The notes under the pieces are model-generated. The model worked only from the letters and a program-made list of their open reading frames with translations, was not told the origin of the DNA and made no database searches. A stretch of 8,490 nt of DNA, taken from assembly GCA_012032855.1 (NCBI GenBank), contig JAAUQA010000112.1, positions 1-8,490 on the forward strand. Reading direction: 5' to 3'. The position numbers were made by a program, and so were the translations under genes. The DNA comes from Candidatus Competibacteraceae bacterium. Its GTDB lineage: Bacteria; Pseudomonadota; Gammaproteobacteria; Competibacterales; Competibacteraceae. Shown here piece by piece: positions 1 through 8,487 of this stretch. Each line of letters opens with the position of its first letter. The stretch's first letter is position 1.

Positions 1-101
1 ATTGGCCAGGAACTGGCTTTAGCCCGGCTGGCTTCGTGTGCCTGTTGTTCGGCACGCCGTCTCTCCGTCACTTCACGTTGCAGACGGCGTCCCAGAGCAA
101 G
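1..101 (-). pseudogene. Continuation of the sensor kinase in a shifted frame (linker and start of HisKA), partial
   Basis: Read from about 101 downwards in the shifted frame, this stretch gives LALGRRLQREVTERRRAEQQ and then AHEASRAK, a typical coiled-coil linker before a histidine kinase dimerisation domain. At the AAA run (18-20) the frame must slip back by one base. It then reads SQFLAN, matching the usual RAK-S-x-F-L-A-N entry to the H-box region of hybrid kinases. The first break is near 97-102 (one extra base, perhaps a T in ACTTGC). The second is one missing A. The two together restore the original frame. The catalytic domains lie outside the window, so whether the kinase is hybrid cannot be seen. 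Confidence 0.65.
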
Positions 102-672
102 TACCCAACGCCCAGACCACTAGCAGCAAAGCTAAAATCAGTAGCGCTTCGACAACCAGGGTGCGAAGAATGTCTTGTTTCAGGAGCTGGAAAAATGCGG
201 GGCTGACATAAAACCAAGCAATGCCCAGTAACTCATCGGTCCAAGGCGAGTACAGTGACATCTCAATCTTGAAACAATCTTGACAAGCGGTTTGCCCACG
301 TTGCAGATCAAACATACCTGCATTAGCGGTAACCGTTTCGTAATCCAACTCCAGCGTCAGTCCAACGATAAAAGGTTTGCCGGTAGCTGGATCAACGACA
401 AGCAGGGTCTTATCCATCTCCGTCGCCACTTCGATCATGGAAATCTTATCGCCTCGTGGTTGCAGCACCTCCGCTAAGGATACGGCTTGAGCTTGAGCTA
501 CCAGTTTGGCATTGGCTTCGGCAGCGACTAATAATCGGGGTTGTAACAAAACAAACCAATAAACTGCGGTCAACCCGGCCACCGCCACCGCTAATAGGAT
601 AAACGACAGGGTAAGCTGAGAAACAATCCGGTCGGCCCGTCGTCTATCATGATGACTAACGCCATTAATCAT
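73..672 (-). CDS. Membrane sensor histidine kinase, N-terminal sensor part (frameshifted; gene runs off the window)
   Basis: This is the sensor half of an inner-membrane histidine kinase. Residues about 20-43 form a first membrane helix, 44-168 a periplasmic domain, and 169-190 a second helix. The periplasmic part carries a CxxC motif (Cys130 and Cys133, positions 274-285), followed by a conserved-looking stretch LYSPWTDELLGIAWFYVSP. The frame ends at a TGA (73-75) just after helix 2. One base out of frame, the sequence continues with a charged linker (REVTERRRAEQQ) that normally joins such sensors to a HisKA domain, so the stop is an artefact or a lesion. ATG at 672 overlaps the end of the YfiR-like gene by 8 bp, which suggests translational coupling. 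No HAMP domain is visible. Ligand and partner are unknown; a link to the YfiR-like protein is inferred from context. Confidence 0.75.
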   Translation of the reverse strand: MINGVSHHDRRRADRIVSQLTLSFILLAVAVAGLTAVYWFVLLQPRLLVAAEANAKLVAQAQAVSLAEVLQPRGDKISMIEVATEMDKTLLVVDPATGKPFIVGLTLELDYETVTANAGMFDLQRGQTACQDCFKIEMSLYSPWTDELLGIAWFYVSPAFFQLLKQDILRTLVVEALLILALLLVVWALGTCSGTPSAT

Positions 673-1252
673 AAATCTTGGCCACCTTGAGTAATAGGCT
701 TTTTAGCTCAATACCGGATCGTTCCAGGGTTGTCCGGTTGATATAGGGCCTCACTCGAACTCCTATGGCAAAACCCGCCAGCACCCCGTTTTCCACATCA
801 CCTGCAAACGGCGAAAACACAATCCGTCGATGATCAATACCGTACTGAATAATGGTTTTGAGCAGCGGTAGCGGTAGGGGTTGTACCAGATAAATGGCCG
901 CCGGAACCGGCAACTGCAGCGCTTCCAGGTTGGCGACATCAATGGGAGTAATCTGAAGTGGTAATTGCTTAATTTTCCCTTGCTGGTCTCCGTGACCGGA
1001 TGCTTTTATTGACTTGGCAAACTCGTCTGCTTGATTCCGATCATCACGGTAGAGCAGCATCAACTCCAAACGGCCTTCGGCATTTACTTTTTCCGCCAGA
1101 TTCTGATCCGCTGCCAACAAGGTGCGAAACAGGCGCAATCCGATCTGCACCCGTTGTTCTTGTGGGCTACCCAGCGCCACAGAAAACGTGATCAGGCAAC
1201 CAAGCACGATGACCAACCGCAGAAAAAGGCGCTTTGTGGACGAAATTGGCAT
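665..1252 (-). CDS. YfiR-like (DUF4154) periplasmic protein
   Basis: A 195-residue protein with an N-terminal signal sequence (hydrophobic core about residues 9-27, possible cleavage near ALG-SP), so it is probably periplasmic. The C-terminal part, from GDVENGVLAGFAIG through VRPYINRTTLERSGIELKS to the final LLLKVAKIYD, matches the ending of the YfiR/DUF4154 family: a Gly-rich turn, a strand with a conserved Asn, then a helix ending in S-x-L-L-K-x-A. YfiR is known in Pseudomonas as a periplasmic inhibitor of the membrane diguanylate cyclase YfiN. Here the neighbouring membrane protein is a sensor kinase instead. It lies 24 bp after the TonB receptor and overlaps the kinase start by 8 bp. No strong ribosome binding site is visible at ATG 1252 (AGGA lies about 12 bases upstream). 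Family call is moderately sure; the partner is inferred. Confidence 0.62.
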   Translation of the reverse strand: MPISSTKRLFLRLVIVLGCLITFSVALGSPQEQRVQIGLRLFRTLLAADQNLAEKVNAEGRLELMLLYRDDRNQADEFAKSIKASGHGDQQGKIKQLPLQITPIDVANLEALQLPVPAAIYLVQPLPLPLLKTIIQYGIDHRRIVFSPFAGDVENGVLAGFAIGVRVRPYINRTTLERSGIELKSLLLKVAKIYD

Positions 1253-1276
1253 CTTGCCGGTTAATCCTGGGTCACT

Positions 1277-2686
1277 TCAGAAGTCGTAAGAAATCTGCCC
1301 CCAAAACAGGCTGTCGGGGTAGTCGATGGTCCGAGTGCCACCCGGCGGCGGCAACTGAAACACTGAATCCTGATCGGCCTCAAGTAAATTGCGCACGCCC
1401 AGCCGGAGGGTTAAACCTTCGGTCCAGACATCGAACCAATTCAGGGTAACGGCGACCCGATGCTCATTAGATGTTTCCACCTCCCGGCTATGGCGTTCGT
1501 GAACGTAATTCCAGTGCGTCGTAAGTAACAACCGGTCAGTGAGCTGATAAAACAAGGCCAAATTGCCCAGCCAGTCGGTGGTCAACGGGTCTTCGTCCGG
1601 TTGTTCGGTGGGTGGACCGAGAAGAGTTATGCGATCGTCATGGTTGTCGGTATAGGACAGATTAAACCAAGTCTTGAAGCGGGGTGACCAGCGCTGCTCC
1701 CATTCCAACTCTACCCCTGCCGATCGGGCTGATCCGGCATTGATAAAGTCGAAATCCGGTGAGCCCCGTTGGGTGACGGAATCTTCAAAGCGGGAATGAA
1801 ACAGAGTCAACCGCAGCACCCGCTCAGGCACTCGATAGATATAACTCAATTCGGTCGTGGCGATAGTTAGGGGATCCAGCTCTGTTAAGGTGCCGGGGGA
1901 AAACGCCTCCCAGAAGGTGGGCGTCCGGTAGCCTTCAGCATATTGAGCTTTGAAGATATGGCTGTCGGCCATGCGCCACACCATAGCTAGCCGGGGGGTG
2001 ATGATGGTGGAATCGAGGTCGTCATGACGATCGAAACGCAGGCCGGCAGTGATCGACAATCGATCCGACACTTGATACTCATCTTGAAGGCTGATACCGA
2101 AAGAACGCAAATTGACATCGCGTAAATTCAATGAACGAGGGGTAGGGGGCGGTTCAGGGTTACCGCCTGGGGGAGGACCACCACCCGGAGGAGGACCGCC
2201 GGGCGGCGCTGGTGGAAGCCTTAAAAAAGCCTCCTCTACACGGGTATCAACATAAGAAAATTGTAACAACCACCGATGGCGTTCCCAGCCTTGCCAGAAC
2301 AGCCGCCCTCCCCCTTCCCAGGTTTGGCCTCGAAAAATTCTGCGTCCGAAATCGGAATCGTTAGTGAGATAGGAGAGATACAGTTCTCCTTGGGTGTCTG
2401 CCGTCGGTTCGAAATGTTGCCGCGCCTCAAAAGCTTCAGTTCGTTCCGTGCGGAACCGTTCTCGGTCATCGTCATAGTCGCGATTGATGACCTGAGCGGT
2501 TAGTTGCAAGCCCCGATGCGCGAAGATAGCAATACCGGACTGCTGATCGTCGTTGGCCTCAATACCCGGAGGAGCTTCCACTGAATCACCCGTAAAGCCC
2601 GCCAGATCAAGGCTGAATCGGGTTGCGCCATCCTCACTCTGAGAGGCATATTGCCCCCCCAGCATGGCTGTACCATTCTCGTCCAC
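1277..2686 (-). CDS. TonB-dependent receptor, beta-barrel part (3' piece of a frameshifted gene)
   Basis: This is the barrel domain of the receptor whose plug is encoded at 2500-3315. Typical barrel strands recur throughout, for example LSITAGLRFDRHDDLD, GYRTPTFWEAFSPG (the conserved GYRxPxxxE block of TonB receptors) and FKTWFNLSYTDN. The last residue is Phe in WGQISYDF, the usual outer-membrane insertion signal, so the 3' end is intact. The GTG at 2686 is only the first start-like codon in this frame. Real coding sequence extends upstream to about 2711, where the A6 run breaks the frame. One predicted loop (2138-2215) is almost pure Pro and Gly. Joined with the plug, the protein would be about 679 residues, normal for the family. 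The transported or sensed ligand is unknown. Confidence 0.85.
   Translation of the reverse strand: MDENGTAMLGGQYASQSEDGATRFSLDLAGFTGDSVEAPPGIEANDDQQSGIAIFAHRGLQLTAQVINRDYDDDRERFRTERTEAFEARQHFEPTADTQGELYLSYLTNDSDFGRRIFRGQTWEGGGRLFWQGWERHRWLLQFSYVDTRVEEAFLRLPPAPPGGPPPGGGPPPGGNPEPPPTPRSLNLRDVNLRSFGISLQDEYQVSDRLSITAGLRFDRHDDLDSTIITPRLAMVWRMADSHIFKAQYAEGYRTPTFWEAFSPGTLTELDPLTIATTELSYIYRVPERVLRLTLFHSRFEDSVTQRGSPDFDFINAGSARSAGVELEWEQRWSPRFKTWFNLSYTDNHDDRITLLGPPTEQPDEDPLTTDWLGNLALFYQLTDRLLLTTHWNYVHERHSREVETSNEHRVAVTLNWFDVWTEGLTLRLGVRNLLEADQDSVFQLPPPGGTRTIDYPDSLFWGQISYDF
2138..2215 (-). repeat. Pro/Gly low-complexity segment in the receptor barrel
   Basis: Of the 26 residues encoded here, 15 are Pro and 7 are Gly, arranged as short GGPPPG units. 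The repeat units use different synonymous codons (CCT/CCC/CCG/CCA, GGC/GGT), so the pattern is kept at protein level rather than being fresh DNA slippage. It sits between two barrel strands (LLQFSYVDTRVEE and RSLNLRDVNLRS) and is best read as a surface-exposed loop. Confidence 0.8.
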
Positions 2687-3315
2687 CCGCGTAAATAACC
2701 TGTTATTTTTTGCCGGGTCAGAATATTCAGCACTCCATTATAGGCAAAATCGCCGTACAAAACGGAACCGGGACCACGGATGAATTCGATCCGCTCTACC
2801 TGTTCGATCGGCAGGGTCAAGGTCTGGGATGGTAGTCCGGAAATATCCCGGGCCATAGTCACACCATTGAGCAAAACTTTGTAGTTGAACTCAGTGGCTA
2901 AGCCCCTAATGGCCAAGCCTATATCGGTCGGGGCGTCTGGAACTCTTTGGAGGGTCATCACGCCGGGGATCAGGGCCAACGCTTCCCAAACGTTTCGCAT
3001 TCCCAGTGCTTCCAGATCGCGGCCATGTAACACGGTTACCGTTCCGGGTACGAAATCGGCATTCAGCCGGCTTTTAGTGGCGATCTCAGTGCTTTCGTCG
3101 AGTACCTGAAGCATTTCCTCCAGCCATTGTTCGTCCTCACTGGCTAAGTCGGTTTCCCCAATCGCTACATCTTCTTGGGCCGGCAACGAAGTGCACACCA
3201 GTAACAACAATAGCGCTACGCTTACGCAAACTGTGATGAACCTTGGCTTACTTCGCAGAGTTTTTGCCTTTCCAGACCGAGCTTGTCGTAAGGTTCCACG
3301 GCGGATTTTTGTCAT
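2500..3315 (-). CDS. TonB-dependent receptor, signal peptide and plug domain (5' piece of a frameshifted gene)
   Basis: Residues 1-47 form a long signal sequence: a basic stretch of about 26 residues, then the hydrophobic core VSVALLLLLVCTSLPAQ. Residues about 70-200 are the plug: TEIATKSRLNADFVPG, VWEALALIPGVMTLQ, LLNGVTM, and the hallmark VERIEFIRGPGSVLYG followed by NGVLNILTR. After Lys203 the frame is lost at a run of six A (2706-2711 on the plus strand); the remaining 68 residues are out-of-frame nonsense. With one more A the reading continues as NNRLFTRVDENG into the barrel piece. The gene starts 29 bp after the GGDEF gene stop, with a weak GAGA in place of a good ribosome binding site. 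It would bind an outer-membrane ligand and take energy from TonB, or act as a signal receptor in this operon. The function is recognised; the ligand is not. Confidence 0.88.
   Translation of the reverse strand: MTKIRRGTLRQARSGKAKTLRSKPRFITVCVSVALLLLLVCTSLPAQEDVAIGETDLASEDEQWLEEMLQVLDESTEIATKSRLNADFVPGTVTVLHGRDLEALGMRNVWEALALIPGVMTLQRVPDAPTDIGLAIRGLATEFNYKVLLNGVTMARDISGLPSQTLTLPIEQVERIEFIRGPGSVLYGDFAYNGVLNILTRQKITGYLRGWTRMVQPCWGGNMPLRVRMAQPDSALIWRALRVIQWKLLRVLRPTTISSPVLLSSRIGACN
2706..2711 (-). other. Frameshift site: A6 run in the TonB receptor gene
   Basis: On the coding strand the run reads CGG CAA AAA ATA. Seven A would give CGG CAA AAA AAT AAC and join plug and barrel without loss. One base is missing relative to the inferred intact gene. 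Confidence 0.85.
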
Positions 3316-3344
3316 TTTGTTTTTCTCTGGTTCGCACTAAATTT

Positions 3345-4271
3345 TCAGGCGCAAGGGTTATCATCTCCCACCACCCGATTTCGTCCGGCCCGCTTCGCTT
3401 GATACAAACGACTATCAGCCATCTCCAGCAAAGCTTGGGATTCGGTATGCGGATCGGGTTGCAGGGTGGCGACACCCATGCTGACCGTGACGAAGGTGGC
3501 GACGCTGGAATGCTGATGGTCGATTTGCTGTGACACGATCCGTTCTCGTAATCGTTCAGCAATCGCTAACGCTCCAGTGTGATCGGTTGTCGGCAACACA
3601 CAGGCGAATTCTTCACCACCGTAGCGCGCCACTAGATCGGTGCGTCTCGGTAAACCTTCCGCCAGCGTTTGCGCAACCGTTTGCAAACAGCGATCACCGG
3701 CGGCGTGACCGTACTGGTCGTTGTATGCCTTGAAATGATCCACGTCGATAAGCACCAAAGAAAGCGGCGTTCTGGCCCGAATCGCGCGAGCCCATTCGGT
3801 GTCGAGAAACTCATCGAAGCGGCGGCGATTGGGAATGCCGGTCAGCCCGTCGGTCATGGAAAGATCCGCTAAGAAATCCCGGTAGCGTTTTAGTTCGAGA
3901 TGAATGCCCACCCTTAGCTTCACGATACCGGGGCGCACCGGTTTAGTCAGATAATCGACAGCGCCGAATTGCAAGCCGATTTCCTCGTCTTCTTCCTGAT
4001 CCCTGGAGGTGATGAAAATGACCGGTATGTCCTGAGTGATCGGATTTTGCTTCAAGCGGGCGCAGACATCGTGGCCGCTCATTTGCGGCATGACGACATC
4101 TAACAAGATCAAATCCGGGCGCTGCTGCTCAGCCACAGTCAGGGCATCCGGCCCGCTGGTGGCGAATAGGATCCGATACTCGTCCGACAGCATGGCGTTC
4201 AGAATTTCGATGTTTTCAATCAGGTCGTCGACAACCAACAGAGTCGCCGGTTTTTCGCTCGATGTTGTCAT
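3345..4271 (-). CDS. Response regulator with receiver and GGDEF domains (diguanylate cyclase)
   Basis: A 308-residue intact cytoplasmic protein that should make c-di-GMP from two GTP when phosphorylated. The receiver spans about residues 9-125: acidic pair D15/D16, phospho-acceptor D58 in LILLDVVMP, T88 in FITSR and K110 in TKPV, so all key residues are present. The GGDEF domain spans about 137-300: TDGLTGIPNRRRF entry, metal-binding D176 in LIDVDHFKAYND, the active-site signature GGEEF at 218-222, and a product-inhibition I-site RxxD (R209-D212) five residues before it. It should therefore be active and feedback-inhibited. ATG at 4271 has GGAG five bases upstream. It is the first gene of the four-gene cluster, so the sensor kinase at the far end is a plausible phosphate donor; that pairing is inferred. 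Confidence 0.95.
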   Translation of the reverse strand: MTTSSEKPATLLVVDDLIENIEILNAMLSDEYRILFATSGPDALTVAEQQRPDLILLDVVMPQMSGHDVCARLKQNPITQDIPVIFITSRDQEEDEEIGLQFGAVDYLTKPVRPGIVKLRVGIHLELKRYRDFLADLSMTDGLTGIPNRRRFDEFLDTEWARAIRARTPLSLVLIDVDHFKAYNDQYGHAAGDRCLQTVAQTLAEGLPRRTDLVARYGGEEFACVLPTTDHTGALAIAERLRERIVSQQIDHQHSSVATFVTVSMGVATLQPDPHTESQALLEMADSRLYQAKRAGRNRVVGDDNPCA

Positions 4272-4397: not shown

Positions 4398-4463
4398 GAA
4401 TTTTGCCGGATTGGTACCGGCTCAACAGTCCGTACCTATTGCGGACCAAGTCAGACTAACGGC

Positions 4464-4468
4464 GGGAG
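4464..4468 (+). promoter_or_regulatory. Ribosome binding site deciding the Slp start
   Basis: GGGAG eight bases before ATG 4477. No such site precedes the upstream in-frame TTG at 4411. Confidence 0.7.
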
Positions 4469-4476
4469 ACAGTGCC

Positions 4477-5196
4477 ATGCGCAGCAATCAGCTAATCTCT
4501 CTTGTCCTTATCCTATCTCTGTCGGCGGGATGTGCAACTGTCACGACCTCGGGAATGACGGGCACAGTTAACAGGCTAGATACCGAAACAGAGGTGGCTC
4601 CGGCACGGTATAACACTCCGCATAGCTTAAGGCAGATCTCTGCAAACGATCTGTCGTTAACTCAGGTAACCAGAAGCCGTGGCGCTTTCGCGGGAGCACG
4701 GGTTAGGTGGGGCGGCACAATCCGTTCCTTAGCCAACGAACCTGGTCGGACCTTGGTCGAAGTGCAGGCTTATGCGCTCGACCAAACCGGTAGACCCAGG
4801 CTTGATACAGCTGCAGAGGGCTGGTTTTTGGCCCGTGCCCGGATACCGTATGATGAAGTTGTCTATGCCGAAGGCCGACCGCTGACGGCATCTGGAACAC
4901 TGCAAGGAACGGTTATGACGGGAGGGCAGGTCATCCCGATTATCGAGGTTGATTCATTGTATTTTTGGGACCAAAGCCCCGATGCCGGCGATCGTTATCG
5001 TTATGCTTTAAGACCGAATCGATCCGCCGAATTGTATTACTATCCCTACCGTGATCATCGACCCTGGCGTTACCGTCCCTGGTATTGGCCACATATTTCG
5101 TTAGGTCTCGGCTATTGCAAAGGTTGTGGCGGATGGCGGGCCTATCCATCGTTGGTCTGGCCTGGAAGCGGGTTTTATTTCAGATACGGGTATTAA
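4477..5196 (+). CDS. slp: Slp-family outer-membrane lipoprotein
   Basis: A 239-residue lipoprotein. ATG 4477 is chosen because GGGAG lies eight bases upstream (4464-4468) and because it puts a clean lipoprotein signal at the N-terminus: a hydrophobic stretch, then LSAGC with acylated Cys19. Ala at +2 favours outer-membrane sorting. An upstream TTG at 4411 is in frame but would place 22 extra residues before the signal. The Slp domain covers about residues 50-170, with GARVRWGGTIRSLAN, TLVEVQAYALDQTGRP and a C-terminal EVDSLYFWDQ strand. A further 60 or so residues are rich in Tyr, Trp and Arg and include a CKGC motif (214-217). Slp in E. coli is a starvation and stationary-phase lipoprotein of uncertain role. 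It is transcribed alone and faces the protease gene. Confidence 0.88.
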   Translation: MRSNQLISLVLILSLSAGCATVTTSGMTGTVNRLDTETEVAPARYNTPHSLRQISANDLSLTQVTRSRGAFAGARVRWGGTIRSLANEPGRTLVEVQAYALDQTGRPRLDTAAEGWFLARARIPYDEVVYAEGRPLTASGTLQGTVMTGGQVIPIIEVDSLYFWDQSPDAGDRYRYALRPNRSAELYYYPYRDHRPWRYRPWYWPHISLGLGYCKGCGGWRAYPSLVWPGSGFYFRYGY

Positions 5197-5232: not shown

Positions 5233-6387
5233 TTATTGAATTGGACTTATCTTTCCGCTAACTGTGCCGGTGCTTGCCGTTTCAACAACGACATCATCGA
5301 TGCGAATTTCGCTGGCCTCATCGCGATAGGTCTTCTTGTTGTTAAAACCCCCGATAGTCAGGGCATGAACGCCCGCCGAGAGGGTGCCCAAATCGATAGC
5401 GACGGTCTGCCAGCCGGTGGTGCGTAGCGGTCCACCGTTCCCATCGCCGACAATCCGGGCCACAAAATCATTTCCTGAATCACTGATGAGCTCGCGTCTA
5501 TCGCCAGCAGCGCCTCGCTGAACTCCGTCCGCTTCATAATTGGCAGCTTGGCTTAAGCGGTAGCGTAACGACACGGTTACGGGCTGCGGCGCGGCCAACG
5601 TGAAAGTTCGCCGCCAACCGCCGGACATGCCGAAAATATCCGCGTCGTCACGTCCACCGAGCATTACCCGCAGACCGCCCCCACTGAATCCACCTCCTTC
5701 CAGAAACTGGCCCCAGGCATAAAACGGTCGATTTGTGCCGCCAAAGGTGTCATCGACATACTCGAAGCCATTGGTGTCACCGTCGAAGCGAGCTTCGAAG
5801 ATAACTGCACCGCCATCACCGCCATCACCAGCAATATCGATAGTGGCTTGCGCCGTATTGTTGGCCGCGTTGCTGTCGTTGTCGGCGGACACGGTTACGG
5901 TGCTGACAAAGCGACCACTCTCCGCACTTTGCAGCGTCACGGTGATCGTCCTGTCGTCACCGGCGGTAATATCCTCCAGATCGCAGTCGATCTGGCCGCT
6001 ACCCTCGCTACAGCCACCGACATCAACCGCCGTATTCGCTACCACCAACCCAACGGGTATAGCGATTGTGGCGGTCGCATTGGTGGCGGTTGCCGCGCCG
6101 CTGTTTCTGACTTCGATCACGTAGTCAAAATCGGTATCCGCTGCGGCACTGATCGGATTGGTCGGAAAGCTGACGCGGACATCCGCATCCGGGTTATCAA
6201 TCGCTGTGATACAGCTGGCGTCGACGATTTCAGGTTGCATTTGGTCGAGGCTGCATTGAGAGAACTCATCGCTGCCATTGAGAAAGGGATTCATGATAAA
6301 ACCATTGGGCGTACTCGCACAGGCCGAACCCGATTGATTATCGTGAGGAGCGCCGAAATTATGGCCAAGCTCATGAGCAACCGTCAA
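5233..6387 (-). CDS. Secreted metzincin protease, catalytic motif and C-terminal domains (3' piece of a frameshifted gene)
   Basis: This piece begins in the middle of the catalytic domain with HELGHNFGAPHD (positions 6343-6375 cover HExxHxxGxxH), the zinc site of metzincins of the reprolysin/M12B type. FIMNP around 6294 is the Met-turn. Cysteines around it (CASTP, QCSLDQ, DASC) could form disulfides. Next comes a DUF11-like Ig-fold segment, about residues 62-170 (VRVSFPTNPIS, VEVRNSG-type strands, SADNDSNAANNT). Residues about 190-375 form a beta-rich domain (EARFDGDTNGFEY, WRRTFTLAAP, VTVSLRYRLS, EIRIDDVVVET) that resembles a jelly-roll binding module. The TTG at 6387 is not the real start; the frame was broken at the G7 run 12 to 20 bases upstream. 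The substrate is unknown. Confidence 0.85.
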   Translation of the reverse strand: MTVAHELGHNFGAPHDNQSGSACASTPNGFIMNPFLNGSDEFSQCSLDQMQPEIVDASCITAIDNPDADVRVSFPTNPISAAADTDFDYVIEVRNSGAATATNATATIAIPVGLVVANTAVDVGGCSEGSGQIDCDLEDITAGDDRTITVTLQSAESGRFVSTVTVSADNDSNAANNTAQATIDIAGDGGDGGAVIFEARFDGDTNGFEYVDDTFGGTNRPFYAWGQFLEGGGFSGGGLRVMLGGRDDADIFGMSGGWRRTFTLAAPQPVTVSLRYRLSQAANYEADGVQRGAAGDRRELISDSGNDFVARIVGDGNGGPLRTTGWQTVAIDLGTLSAGVHALTIGGFNNKKTYRDEASEIRIDDVVVETASTGTVSGKISPIQ

Positions 6388-7458
6388 AGCGCCGGCCGTT
6401 CCCCCCCTGCCTAACCTCGCTCACGCCAACGCCAAACCTAGCGCTGCATAGGGAACCGAGGTACGCGATACCTACGGTGCTCCCAGTCAGATCACGCCCG
6501 GTAAATAGATGAGTCAGCCCCGGATTGGTAAATCCAGGCGCACTGGCGAAACTGCCGAGTTGACGGAGCAAGGTCAGCGGGTCCGTTGAAGTCAGCGAGC
6601 CGTTGTTCTGCAGCAGTCTTATCTCGACCGGGTTGATCCTGACCCCGACCTGCTCCGAATAAATACCGTCGACCACATTCATCCTCGCCATGACCGCAGC
6701 CTCCGCGTTGCCGCTATTGGCTTGAACGAATTGGACATCGGCAATAATCGCCAAATCCAGTTGCAGCGCAGCGGCGGGCAGTGCCTGCACCAATCCCTGC
6801 AAATTCTGCACCTGGGATCGATAATCCTGTAGGGGTCGCTCGTTTCTTTCGAGAGTTGCATCATCTCCACCCCCTTCGGTGGCCGGATCGACATAGTCCT
6901 TAACCGGCTCCTGAGGACGGTTGGAAACCGTGTCCGACAACCGGTAGATCAGGGTATAAGGGGTTGACCGCAGGGCGGGCGTCTGCAAAGACTCCGCGAC
7001 GTCGTTGGACGAGTCGATGACATACAGTTCCATACCGTCCCAAATCGTCCCGGACCAGCGTCCTCCCATCTGTGTCAGGCGTACCCAGGAATTCGGCGCG
7101 TCGGTAACCTGACCACGATAAAACTGCGCGGCGTTACGCAGCCTCTCCCGCTGCGCTTGCGGCAAATTGGCCATCAGGCGTTCATTCGACTCCAACACCA
7201 GTTCGAAATCCCGACCAAACGCCTGAAACGATAATACGAACGAATCGGCAGGCATGCCTTGAGCCGATTCCGTTTCCGGCGACAGTTGTTGGCGATCGGT
7301 TGGGTCCGAGGGGGTCAGTTCCAACAGTTCGTGGTGCAAAATTTCAAGGTCTTCGGTTGTGGTGATGTCCGTCGATGCGCCATTCTCGGCAAAAGCCGGT
7401 CCGCCCGCCACGGCAGTGAAAAAGCCATGATCGACAGGTAGGTAAAAAAACCTCGCAT
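6371..7458 (-). CDS. Secreted metzincin protease, signal peptide, propeptide and first half of catalytic domain (5' piece)
   Basis: The true start is taken as ATG 7458 because GGAGGA lies seven bases upstream; the longer ATG at 7480 has no such site. From 7458 the protein reads MRGFFTYLSIMAF, then loses its frame at a T5 run (7419-7423). With six T it continues FTAVAGGPAFA-EN, a complete signal peptide with an AFA cleavage site. Then come a propeptide-like region (FYRGQVTDAPNSWVRLTQM, WSGTIWDGMELYVID), as in reprolysin precursors, and the start of the catalytic domain (LDLAIIADVQFVQ, GVRINPVEIRLL, HLFTGRDLTGSTVGIAYLGS). The frame fails again at a G7 run (6401-6407). With both repairs, 7458-5233 is exactly 742 codons (741 residues plus stop). 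The product is exported by Sec. Confidence 0.82.
6401..6407 (-). other. Frameshift site: G7 run inside the protease catalytic domain
   Basis: The coding strand reads CAG GGG GGG AAC and runs into a stop 30 bases later. With six G it reads GGTAGALTVAHELGH, joining the two halves just before the zinc motif. One base is in excess relative to the inferred intact gene. Confidence 0.85.
7419..7423 (-). other. Frameshift site: T5 run inside the protease signal peptide
   Basis: From the well-supported ATG 7458, five T give AFSLPWRAD and an early stop near 7315. Six T give AFFTAVAGGPAFA, a proper signal peptide ending. Confidence 0.78.
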
Positions 7459-7465
7459 ACCGTTT

Positions 7466-7471
7466 TCCTCC
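7466..7471 (-). promoter_or_regulatory. Ribosome binding site of the protease gene
   Basis: GGAGGA, a near-perfect Shine-Dalgarno, seven bases before ATG 7458. It decides the start and exposes the frameshift in the signal peptide. Confidence 0.8.
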
Positions 7472-7788
7472 AATCGCCATATTCGGCGTTGTTTCTTGTT
7501 GGCTGGATGATTCAGCAATGAATTTGCCCCGCTGGGGCGAGGCTGTGCTATAGAAGTTCCATGCCAGACAAGCTCTTTCGCAACGGAAACGACCTTTGAG
7601 AGGTATGGGCTAATAGCCGCTATCTACCCACTTACCGGGGGCAAAGCGCTAACGAAGAAGGGGAAAACAGTATTACCGGTCAAGATGACTCGGGTGCCGA
7701 TTGGGTTTGTTCTGCCGTGATTTGTTACTTAAAACGTCTCAATAACCCAACGGGATGTAGAGACAATGGATTCAAAGGCTCCTTATTA

Positions 7789-8079: not shown

Positions 8080-8487
8080 ATGACCGCCATGACCGCTCAC
8101 CGTGTTGATCCCGCGTTGGCCGCTGGACTACTAAAAATGCGCCTCGCCATACGCAAGGAATTCGGGGCAATGCTGGATATTTATGCACCGGACGCCATTC
8201 CCCGTTTCATCGCCTACGGCCTGAAGTCGCAGGATAACGTGTTAAGGGATTTTGCAGACGCGCTGCGGGCACAGTTTCCTGAAGTCTCGGTGATTGAAGA
8301 CGAGCCCGCGCCGTCCTCGGCACCTCAATCACCGTCAGCCGCCCGTCGATCTTATCGCGGAGTAGCGCTTGCTGCCGCACCTGCGCCCACTTCCCCGGAC
8401 AAACTCGCTATCCCTGTCGGTGGGAATTCGGCCACCACCAGCCCCGGTCGCAAACCGGTCTTTTATCGGGGCGTTCGCGTCAAGTGA
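8080..8487 (+). CDS. Small hypothetical protein with two YRGV motifs
   Basis: A 135-residue protein that I do not recognise. Residues about 10-70 look like a folded helical domain (LAAGLLKMRLAIRKEFGAML, then VLRDFADALRAQFPEV). Residues 74-127 are rich in Ala, Pro and Ser and probably disordered. Two short motifs, SYRGVALA (91-98) and FYRGVRVK (128-135, the very C-terminus), repeat within this tail; the YRG pattern recalls DUF4278-type sequences, but that is a weak resemblance. Two starts are possible: ATG 8080 with AGGA six bases upstream, or ATG 8089 with AAGGA eight bases upstream; the latter removes three residues. There is no signal peptide or membrane segment, so it is probably cytoplasmic. 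It is complete, ending at TGA 8485-8487. Confidence 0.65.
   Translation: MTAMTAHRVDPALAAGLLKMRLAIRKEFGAMLDIYAPDAIPRFIAYGLKSQDNVLRDFADALRAQFPEVSVIEDEPAPSSAPQSPSAARRSYRGVALAAAPAPTSPDKLAIPVGGNSATTSPGRKPVFYRGVRVK

Follow-up and report, generated by a model that had tools for sequence, protein, structure and literature searches.

The 8,490-base stretch analyzed here (the whole of contig JAAUQA010000112.1 of Candidatus Competibacteraceae bacterium, hereafter the window) encodes on its minus strand, in this order, a response regulator with receiver and GGDEF domains (REC-GGDEF), a TonB-dependent receptor (TBDR), a YfiR-like protein and the start of a membrane-anchored sensor protein. Our comparison with other genomes revealed that a dedicated subfamily of TBDRs, the YfiR-like protein and one particular periplasmic sensor domain recur together, and that this sensor is fused to a histidine kinase (in most cases with a gene for REC-GGDEF nearby) or, in one lineage, directly to a GGDEF-EAL output. 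That the parts belong to one conserved four-part module is well supported. We consider it probable that the module is a modular relay of the Yfi type, forming a divergent branch in which the dedicated TBDR provides the outer-membrane input and the sensor is not detectably CHASE8.

Conservation of the cluster

Loci for comparison were chosen by the YfiR-like protein alone, which gave 35 distinct loci besides the window (second copies included, and L018 and L081, from two contigs of one genome, joined). Scanning species genomes with an alignment of the YfiR-like proteins contributed 22 loci, and searches of 369, 40 and 244 genomes gave matches in 7, 3 and 5 genomes, respectively, with partial overlap. 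Among the carriers are Competibacteraceae, Rhodocyclaceae, Marinobacter, Shewanella, Gilvimarinus, Hahella, Acidobacteria and Nitrospinota. The loci are not all independent, as they include groups of close relatives (L002/L003, L004/L007/L009, L019-L022 and L077-L079). A protein with the sensor domain is encoded directly downstream of the YfiR-like gene, in an overlapping frame, in 34/35 loci; the overlap lengths are upper bounds, with gene starts taken from the longest open reading frame (ORF). The output joined to the sensor is a kinase in 29 of the 34, GGDEF-EAL in four (L019-L022, a single lineage), and is cut off in one (L003). On the genome level, the sensor is present in 31 of the 32 genomes that possess the YfiR-like protein. 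Among the 369 genomes, all Gammaproteobacteria (the class of the carrier G001, which was chosen as the centre; at most eight candidates were scored per genome), the YfiR-like protein was found in seven and the sensor in seven, with six genomes common to both, although the sensor alignment had been built with four of the six loci in common among its members.

The receptor gene lies directly upstream of the YfiR-like gene on the same strand (gap -116 to +51) in 22/35 loci, at another same-strand position within 6 kb in eight, and on the other strand only in two. No TBDR is found nearby in the remaining three (L006, L072 and L022); L022 starts at a contig end, and its genome carries a cluster receptor on another contig. 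A same-strand REC-GGDEF or REC-GGDEF-EAL gene occurs within 6 kb in 23/35 loci (22 and 1, respectively), and in none of the four loci with GGDEF-EAL output, some of which are truncated at the end of a contig. The complete set of four parts stands on one strand within 6 kb in 21/35 loci (20 with REC-GGDEF and one with REC-GGDEF-EAL), one of which (L018 with L081) is split over two contigs. An earlier note on this DNA, made from the sequence alone, had suggested a search for conserved co-occurrence of the four families and had named related clusters without this gene order as a finding against it; the co-occurrence holds in these 21 loci, in which at least three gene orders are found. The density of 424 plug matches in 137.5 Mb predicts by chance about 0.0005 same-strand receptors per locus in the 300 bases upstream and 0.02 in the 6 kb to either side, and that of 1301 GGDEF domains predicts about 0.06 per locus within 6 kb on either side, on one strand. 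Thus, the arrangement with the TBDR upstream, seen in 22 of 35 loci, is far above chance.

The TonB-dependent receptor

In the window the receptor occupies positions 1277-3315 of the minus strand in two frames, with the plug in one ORF (3315-2500) and the barrel in another (2686-1277), and the reading switches frame at about 2,715-2,690. Pfam matches both the plug (64.5 bits) and the barrel (133.8 bits), as in all 26 cluster receptors scanned; the TonB-type receptor of the earlier note is therefore confirmed by its domains, although not as one ORF. The window barrel is 67% identical to a receptor of Ca. Competibacter phosphatis and falls inside the clade of cluster receptors. A tree of 64 receptors separates the 32 cluster-type sequences from all others by a single branch (support 100/99), a split recovered in 100% of 200 bootstrap trees. 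On the opposite side stand eight receptors encoded beside canonical DUF4154 genes, 13 nearest non-cluster receptors from genomes that also have a cluster receptor, and 11 further ones. Four receptors (L151, L152, L156 and L157) had been assigned to the cluster type before the tree was built, by profile score or by place, and the clade holds also for receptors encoded kilobases away, on the other strand, or unlinked. An earlier tree, with 28 receptors before rows were dropped, gave the same split, one misframed row aside.

The cluster receptors also share a characteristic segment directly before the plug, T-x-AT-x4-N-x-D-x-VPG, which is present in 31 of 33 cluster-type receptors outside the window (it is missing in the L071 receptor and in the unlinked L151 receptor). 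None of the 42 receptors in the comparison set carries it: 0/9 encoded next to DUF4154 genes, 0/20 from the background and 0/13 nearest non-cluster receptors. The window barrel piece, having no N-terminus, was left out of this count; the window plug ORF carries the motif as TEIATKSRLNADFVPG (3043-3090, minus strand). The STN domain was not among the five Pfam families found in the 26 cluster receptors, nor did it match the receptor pieces of the window.

In two Rhodocyclaceae copies that were scanned, a gene with CrtC/lipocalin and carotenoid-synthesis domains lies between the receptor and the YfiR-like gene (L077, 5951-7894; L079, 8630-10576), a neighbour which may point to a hydrophobic ligand. 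In Hahella (L006, 5936-7723), the position of the receptor is occupied by a HAMP and GAF protein that also matches dCache weakly.

The YfiR-like protein

The YfiR-like protein of the window (195 aa, 665-1252, minus strand) is probably periplasmic and is 77% identical to a protein from a metagenome-assembled genome of Candidatus Competibacteraceae. Against the DUF4154 profile (PF13689, YfiR/HmsC-like) it scores 16.9 bits (E 0.0068), below the cut-off of 24.9; matches at E up to 1 were obtained for 25 of the 29 members of the YfiR-like alignment, with a best E of 0.00038. Both similarity at the profile level and the YfiR fold were found, and by this distant homology we conclude that the protein is a divergent YfiR. 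The YfiR assignment of the earlier note is therefore upheld only as distant homology, by profile comparison and fold, and the hidden Markov model score misses the DUF4154 threshold. Eight of the nine columns that are invariant across the 29 sequences fall in a C-terminal block (SPF-GDVE-G ... RV-PYIN ... LLLKVAK; 668-814, minus strand), which aligns with the C-terminal part of YfiR that binds YfiN and YfiB. None of the 29 YfiR-like proteins has a cysteine in the mature region, in contrast to 21 of 25 canonical DUF4154 proteins, which have two or more.

The sensor protein

The last coding block (1-672, minus strand) encodes the N-terminal part of the sensor protein: a transmembrane helix, a periplasmic PAS/Cache-like domain, a second transmembrane helix and a linker. 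The conserved reading frame is lost at about 120-100, and the contig stops at base 1, short of the catalytic domains; neither HisKA nor HATPase was found in the window, and the ORF at 672-73 has no Pfam match. Because the catalytic domains lie beyond the frame break and the contig end, the kinase identity of this protein is taken from its relatives. Thus, of the inner-membrane sensor kinase described earlier, the sensor part with its periplasmic domain is present, and the kinase is inferred.

The AlphaFold2 model of the sensor (mean predicted local distance difference test, pLDDT, 92) has two membrane helices, the first of them long, with a small PAS/Cache-like sheet between them, and comparison of this model with solved structures returned no convincing relative. 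Among 28 copies of the sensor domain the best Pfam E-value was 0.011, and nine families, CHASE8 not among them, were matched at E up to 0.05 by one copy each. Profile-profile comparison with CHASE8 sensors gave a probability score of 2.2, i.e. no detectable relation; as a control, all nine of the canonical DUF4154 partners that were scanned, with kinase or GGDEF-EAL outputs, match CHASE8 above the cut-off. The two may still share a very distant origin. A periplasmic CxxC (window 274-285, minus strand) is found in 23/28 sensor domains versus 0/16 CHASE8-type sensor pieces, and is missing from the sensors of L001 and L002, close relatives of the window. Cysteines are thus common in the sensors and lacking in their YfiR-like partners, opposite to the canonical arrangement.

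Tree distances of the sensor correlate with those of the YfiR-like protein (r 0.83) more closely than with those of the kinase core to which the sensor is fused (r 0.58; 25 loci), and this order was kept in 488 of 500 subsamples. We treat these correlations as supportive only, because shared history correlates and inflates all pairs.

The output side

The REC-GGDEF protein of the window (308 aa, 3345-4271, minus strand) is of the PleD/WspR type. It matches Response_reg with 87.7 bits and GGDEF with 182.7 bits, and contains the GGEEF active site, the RxxD I-site and the receiver Lys. PleD is its best solved relative; the residue-by-residue alignment spans the whole active region and pairs the receiver Asp with that of PleD. 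The prediction that all active residues and the I-site are in place is thereby borne out. GG[DE]EF is present in 21 and the RxxD pattern at the expected place in 20 of the 22 REC-GGDEF proteins checked, the one from the window included (the exceptions are L014, a short ORF with neither motif, and L013, without the I-site pattern). The G box is present in all 29 kinases of the loci, and the N box is plausible in 26, whereas the matches to its pattern in L016, L077 and L078 look like chance. The H-box pattern SHE[LI]RTP occurs in 18; re-inspection of eight of the remaining 11 found an H box in seven (five of them THELRTP) and none in L072.

In the nearest relatives of the window, L001 and L002, the sensor kinase has the architecture HisKA-HATPase-REC-Hpt, so a four-step phosphorelay is likely there. 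In all eight loci scanned for a divergent receiver gene beside the cluster (L004, L010, L015, L017, L074, L075, L076 and L081), this gene encodes a sigma-54 (NtrC-type) activator, and a second, transcriptional output of the kinase is probable in this branch. Sites resembling TGGC-N7-TTGC occur upstream of some of the operons flanked by this gene, with modest scores. No sigma-54 regulator is encoded among the nine window proteins scanned with Pfam.

Layout of the window and neighbouring genes

The four co-directional blocks stand in the order reported in the earlier note, and its spacing of 29 bases, 24 bases and an 8-base overlap is exact. It had named a promoter or terminator between the genes as a finding that would speak against it; in the sequence scan neither gap contained a promoter-like or terminator-like site on that strand. 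In the window as a whole such sites are near the expectation from shuffled sequence (promoter-like, 2 observed versus 5.2 expected; terminator-like, 13 versus 8.6). Besides the receptor and sensor genes, a third gene of the contig, for a reprolysin-like protease, is broken over frames; because all three are split, an indel-prone assembly is suggested, and assembly indels are the likeliest cause of the breaks. The protease (M12B, with DUF11) lies at 5233-7480 of the minus strand in two frames, with the split near 6,380. An Slp-family outer-membrane lipoprotein is encoded at 4453-5196 (plus strand), divergently from the REC-GGDEF gene, and a 135-aa ORF at 8080-8487 (plus strand) has no Pfam match.

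Proposed mechanism and alternatives

By analogy to YfiB-YfiR-YfiN and from the co-occurrence, we infer that the receptor acts on the YfiR-like protein, which would restrain the sensor. Ligand capture or transport by the receptor would move its N-terminal segment; the movement would alter the binding of the YfiR-like protein to the sensor domain and, in turn, the activity of the kinase. Phosphate would then reach the REC-GGDEF protein, in the nearest relatives probably via the REC and Hpt domains of the kinase itself, and the phosphorylated REC-GGDEF protein would change cyclic di-GMP (c-di-GMP). Repression of the sensor, as exerted by YfiR, is our default guess, with activation as the alternative. 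A more specific version is possible, if somewhat doubtful: the N-terminal helix of the TBDR and the TEIATKxRxNADxVPG segment, exposed to the periplasm by ligand or TonB, would capture the YfiR-like protein and so free the PAS/Cache-like sensor, feeding a phosphorelay or c-di-GMP enzymes. The CxxC of the sensor may have taken over redox control from the YfiR cysteines.

If true, this would give outer-membrane receptors a third way to signal inward, in addition to anti-sigma signalling of the FecA type and sequestration by YfiB, and the catch of a receptor would become a c-di-GMP decision by a protein hand-off across the periplasm. The receptor motif predicts a docking site, and the occurrence of the same sensor before kinases and before GGDEF-EAL is a natural domain swap, which makes the hand-off directly testable.

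A number of observations weigh against the relay. The kinase domain is absent from the window itself. The L071 YfiR-like gene has no sensor protein, Hahella (L006) has no cluster receptor, and sensors were found with no YfiR-like gene beside them in L118 (6246-8558, a hybrid kinase) and L119 (7962-10214, GGDEF-EAL). Some non-cluster receptors match the receptor profile from early positions, and the receptor distances correlate about equally with those of the YfiR-like protein (r 0.67) and those of the kinase core (r 0.70). In seven kinase loci no gene for REC-GGDEF was seen within 6 kb (the L012 sequence ends shortly upstream), and in L067 the regulator (11081-12061), which replaces REC-GGDEF, is a REC protein with a weak GerE match, so that there the output seems to have been exchanged at the regulator too. 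Given the divergent sigma-54 regulator in eight loci, c-di-GMP may not be the sole output. Finally, gene linkage implies shared function and not an order of action.

One alternative is that the YfiR-like protein is not a repressor but a soluble ligand-binding protein, which accepts the ligand brought in by the receptor and whose liganded form binds the kinase sensor in the manner of LuxP and LuxQ, with the receptor acting only in import. We regard it as unlikely, since a single lobe offers no obvious inter-lobe cleft for a ligand and YfiR binds its partners (YfiN and YfiB) by the C-terminal face (PMC4655355), which matches the block most conserved here. The fold scores are tied and do not decide.

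The genes might also share nothing more than an operon, with the two-component system regulating expression of the receptor, or c-di-GMP on another cue, and no physical link between the receptor and the YfiR-like protein. The variable place of the receptor among the loci agrees with this (elsewhere on the strand in eight, on the other strand only in two, none nearby in three, one of these at a contig end), as do the cluster-type receptor of G075 (L151), which lies far away on the same contig, and the receptor distances given above. Nevertheless, the cluster receptors form one clade with a special N-terminal segment, which goes beyond the needs of a shared promoter, and we find this explanation quite improbable. 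A FecA-type system, in which the STN domain of the receptor signals to an anti-sigma factor, could account for a TBDR with a conserved N-terminal segment, but is practically excluded by the failure to find an STN domain in the 26 cluster receptors and the window pieces, or any FecR or sigma-factor match in the nine window proteins.

Comparison with known systems

In LuxPQ, as in other kinases under the control of a periplasmic protein, a soluble protein acts on the sensor domain of the kinase. The cluster resembles it in this respect, and differs in that LuxP is a two-lobed binding protein without a dedicated TBDR. PleD and WspR share with the window regulator the receiver and the GGDEF domain with an I-site, but unlike PleD the window protein has one receiver only, and its presumed partner kinase is linked to a TBDR and a YfiR-like protein.

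The cluster also resembles YfiBNR/TpbB of Pseudomonas aeruginosa, DgcN-YfiR of E. coli and HmsC-HmsD of Y. pestis, in which a periplasmic protein of the YfiR fold is likewise encoded beside an inner-membrane protein with a periplasmic sensor that controls c-di-GMP, and the C-terminal block of YfiR is conserved in common. Here, however, the YfiR-like protein is below the DUF4154 threshold and lacks the cysteine pairs of YfiR, the sensor is not detectably CHASE8, the output is usually a kinase with a separate REC-GGDEF protein, and the outer-membrane partner is a TBDR instead of the OmpA-like lipoprotein YfiB; no OmpA domain was found among the nine window proteins scanned. The cluster is therefore a variant of the Yfi kind and not a YfiBNR system.

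The modular idea was already stated by Malone et al. 2012 (PMC3375315), who describe distant Yfi systems in which GGDEF gives way to GGDEF-EAL, Hpt or kinase outputs and YfiB is nearly always missing, and who suggest that YfiR and YfiN form a modular core. The suggestion of the earlier note that a kinase takes the place of YfiN is thus not new; it is true of the relatives (29 of 34 downstream sensors) and is not seen in the window. According to the same paper, divergent YfiN homologs retain the PAS residues thought to bind YfiR, whereas the sensor described here has no detectable relation to CHASE8 sensors. The word TonB is absent from the main text of PMC3375315, and we found no paper linking YfiR and TonB-dependent receptors, as judged by titles and abstract openings; four papers contain both terms somewhere in their text.

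Canonical DUF4154 genes (30 genes from 17 genomes, nine of them from a single genome; L082-L109) show a related arrangement: a same-strand TBDR lies within 450 bases in 15/30, and a CHASE8-type partner directly downstream in 18/30 (13 kinases and five GGDEF-EAL proteins; 16 of these 18 built the model used for detection, and nine were confirmed with Pfam). Their sensor domain is a different one, though, and their TBDRs neither carry the N-terminal motif of the cluster (0/9) nor fall in its clade (none of eight). The cluster in the window thus belongs, as a single branch, to a wider association of YfiR-type proteins with TBDRs, which we did not find described within the limits of that literature search, and the TBDRs linked to half of the ordinary DUF4154 genes would be candidates for the outer-membrane input of YfiR systems that lack YfiB.

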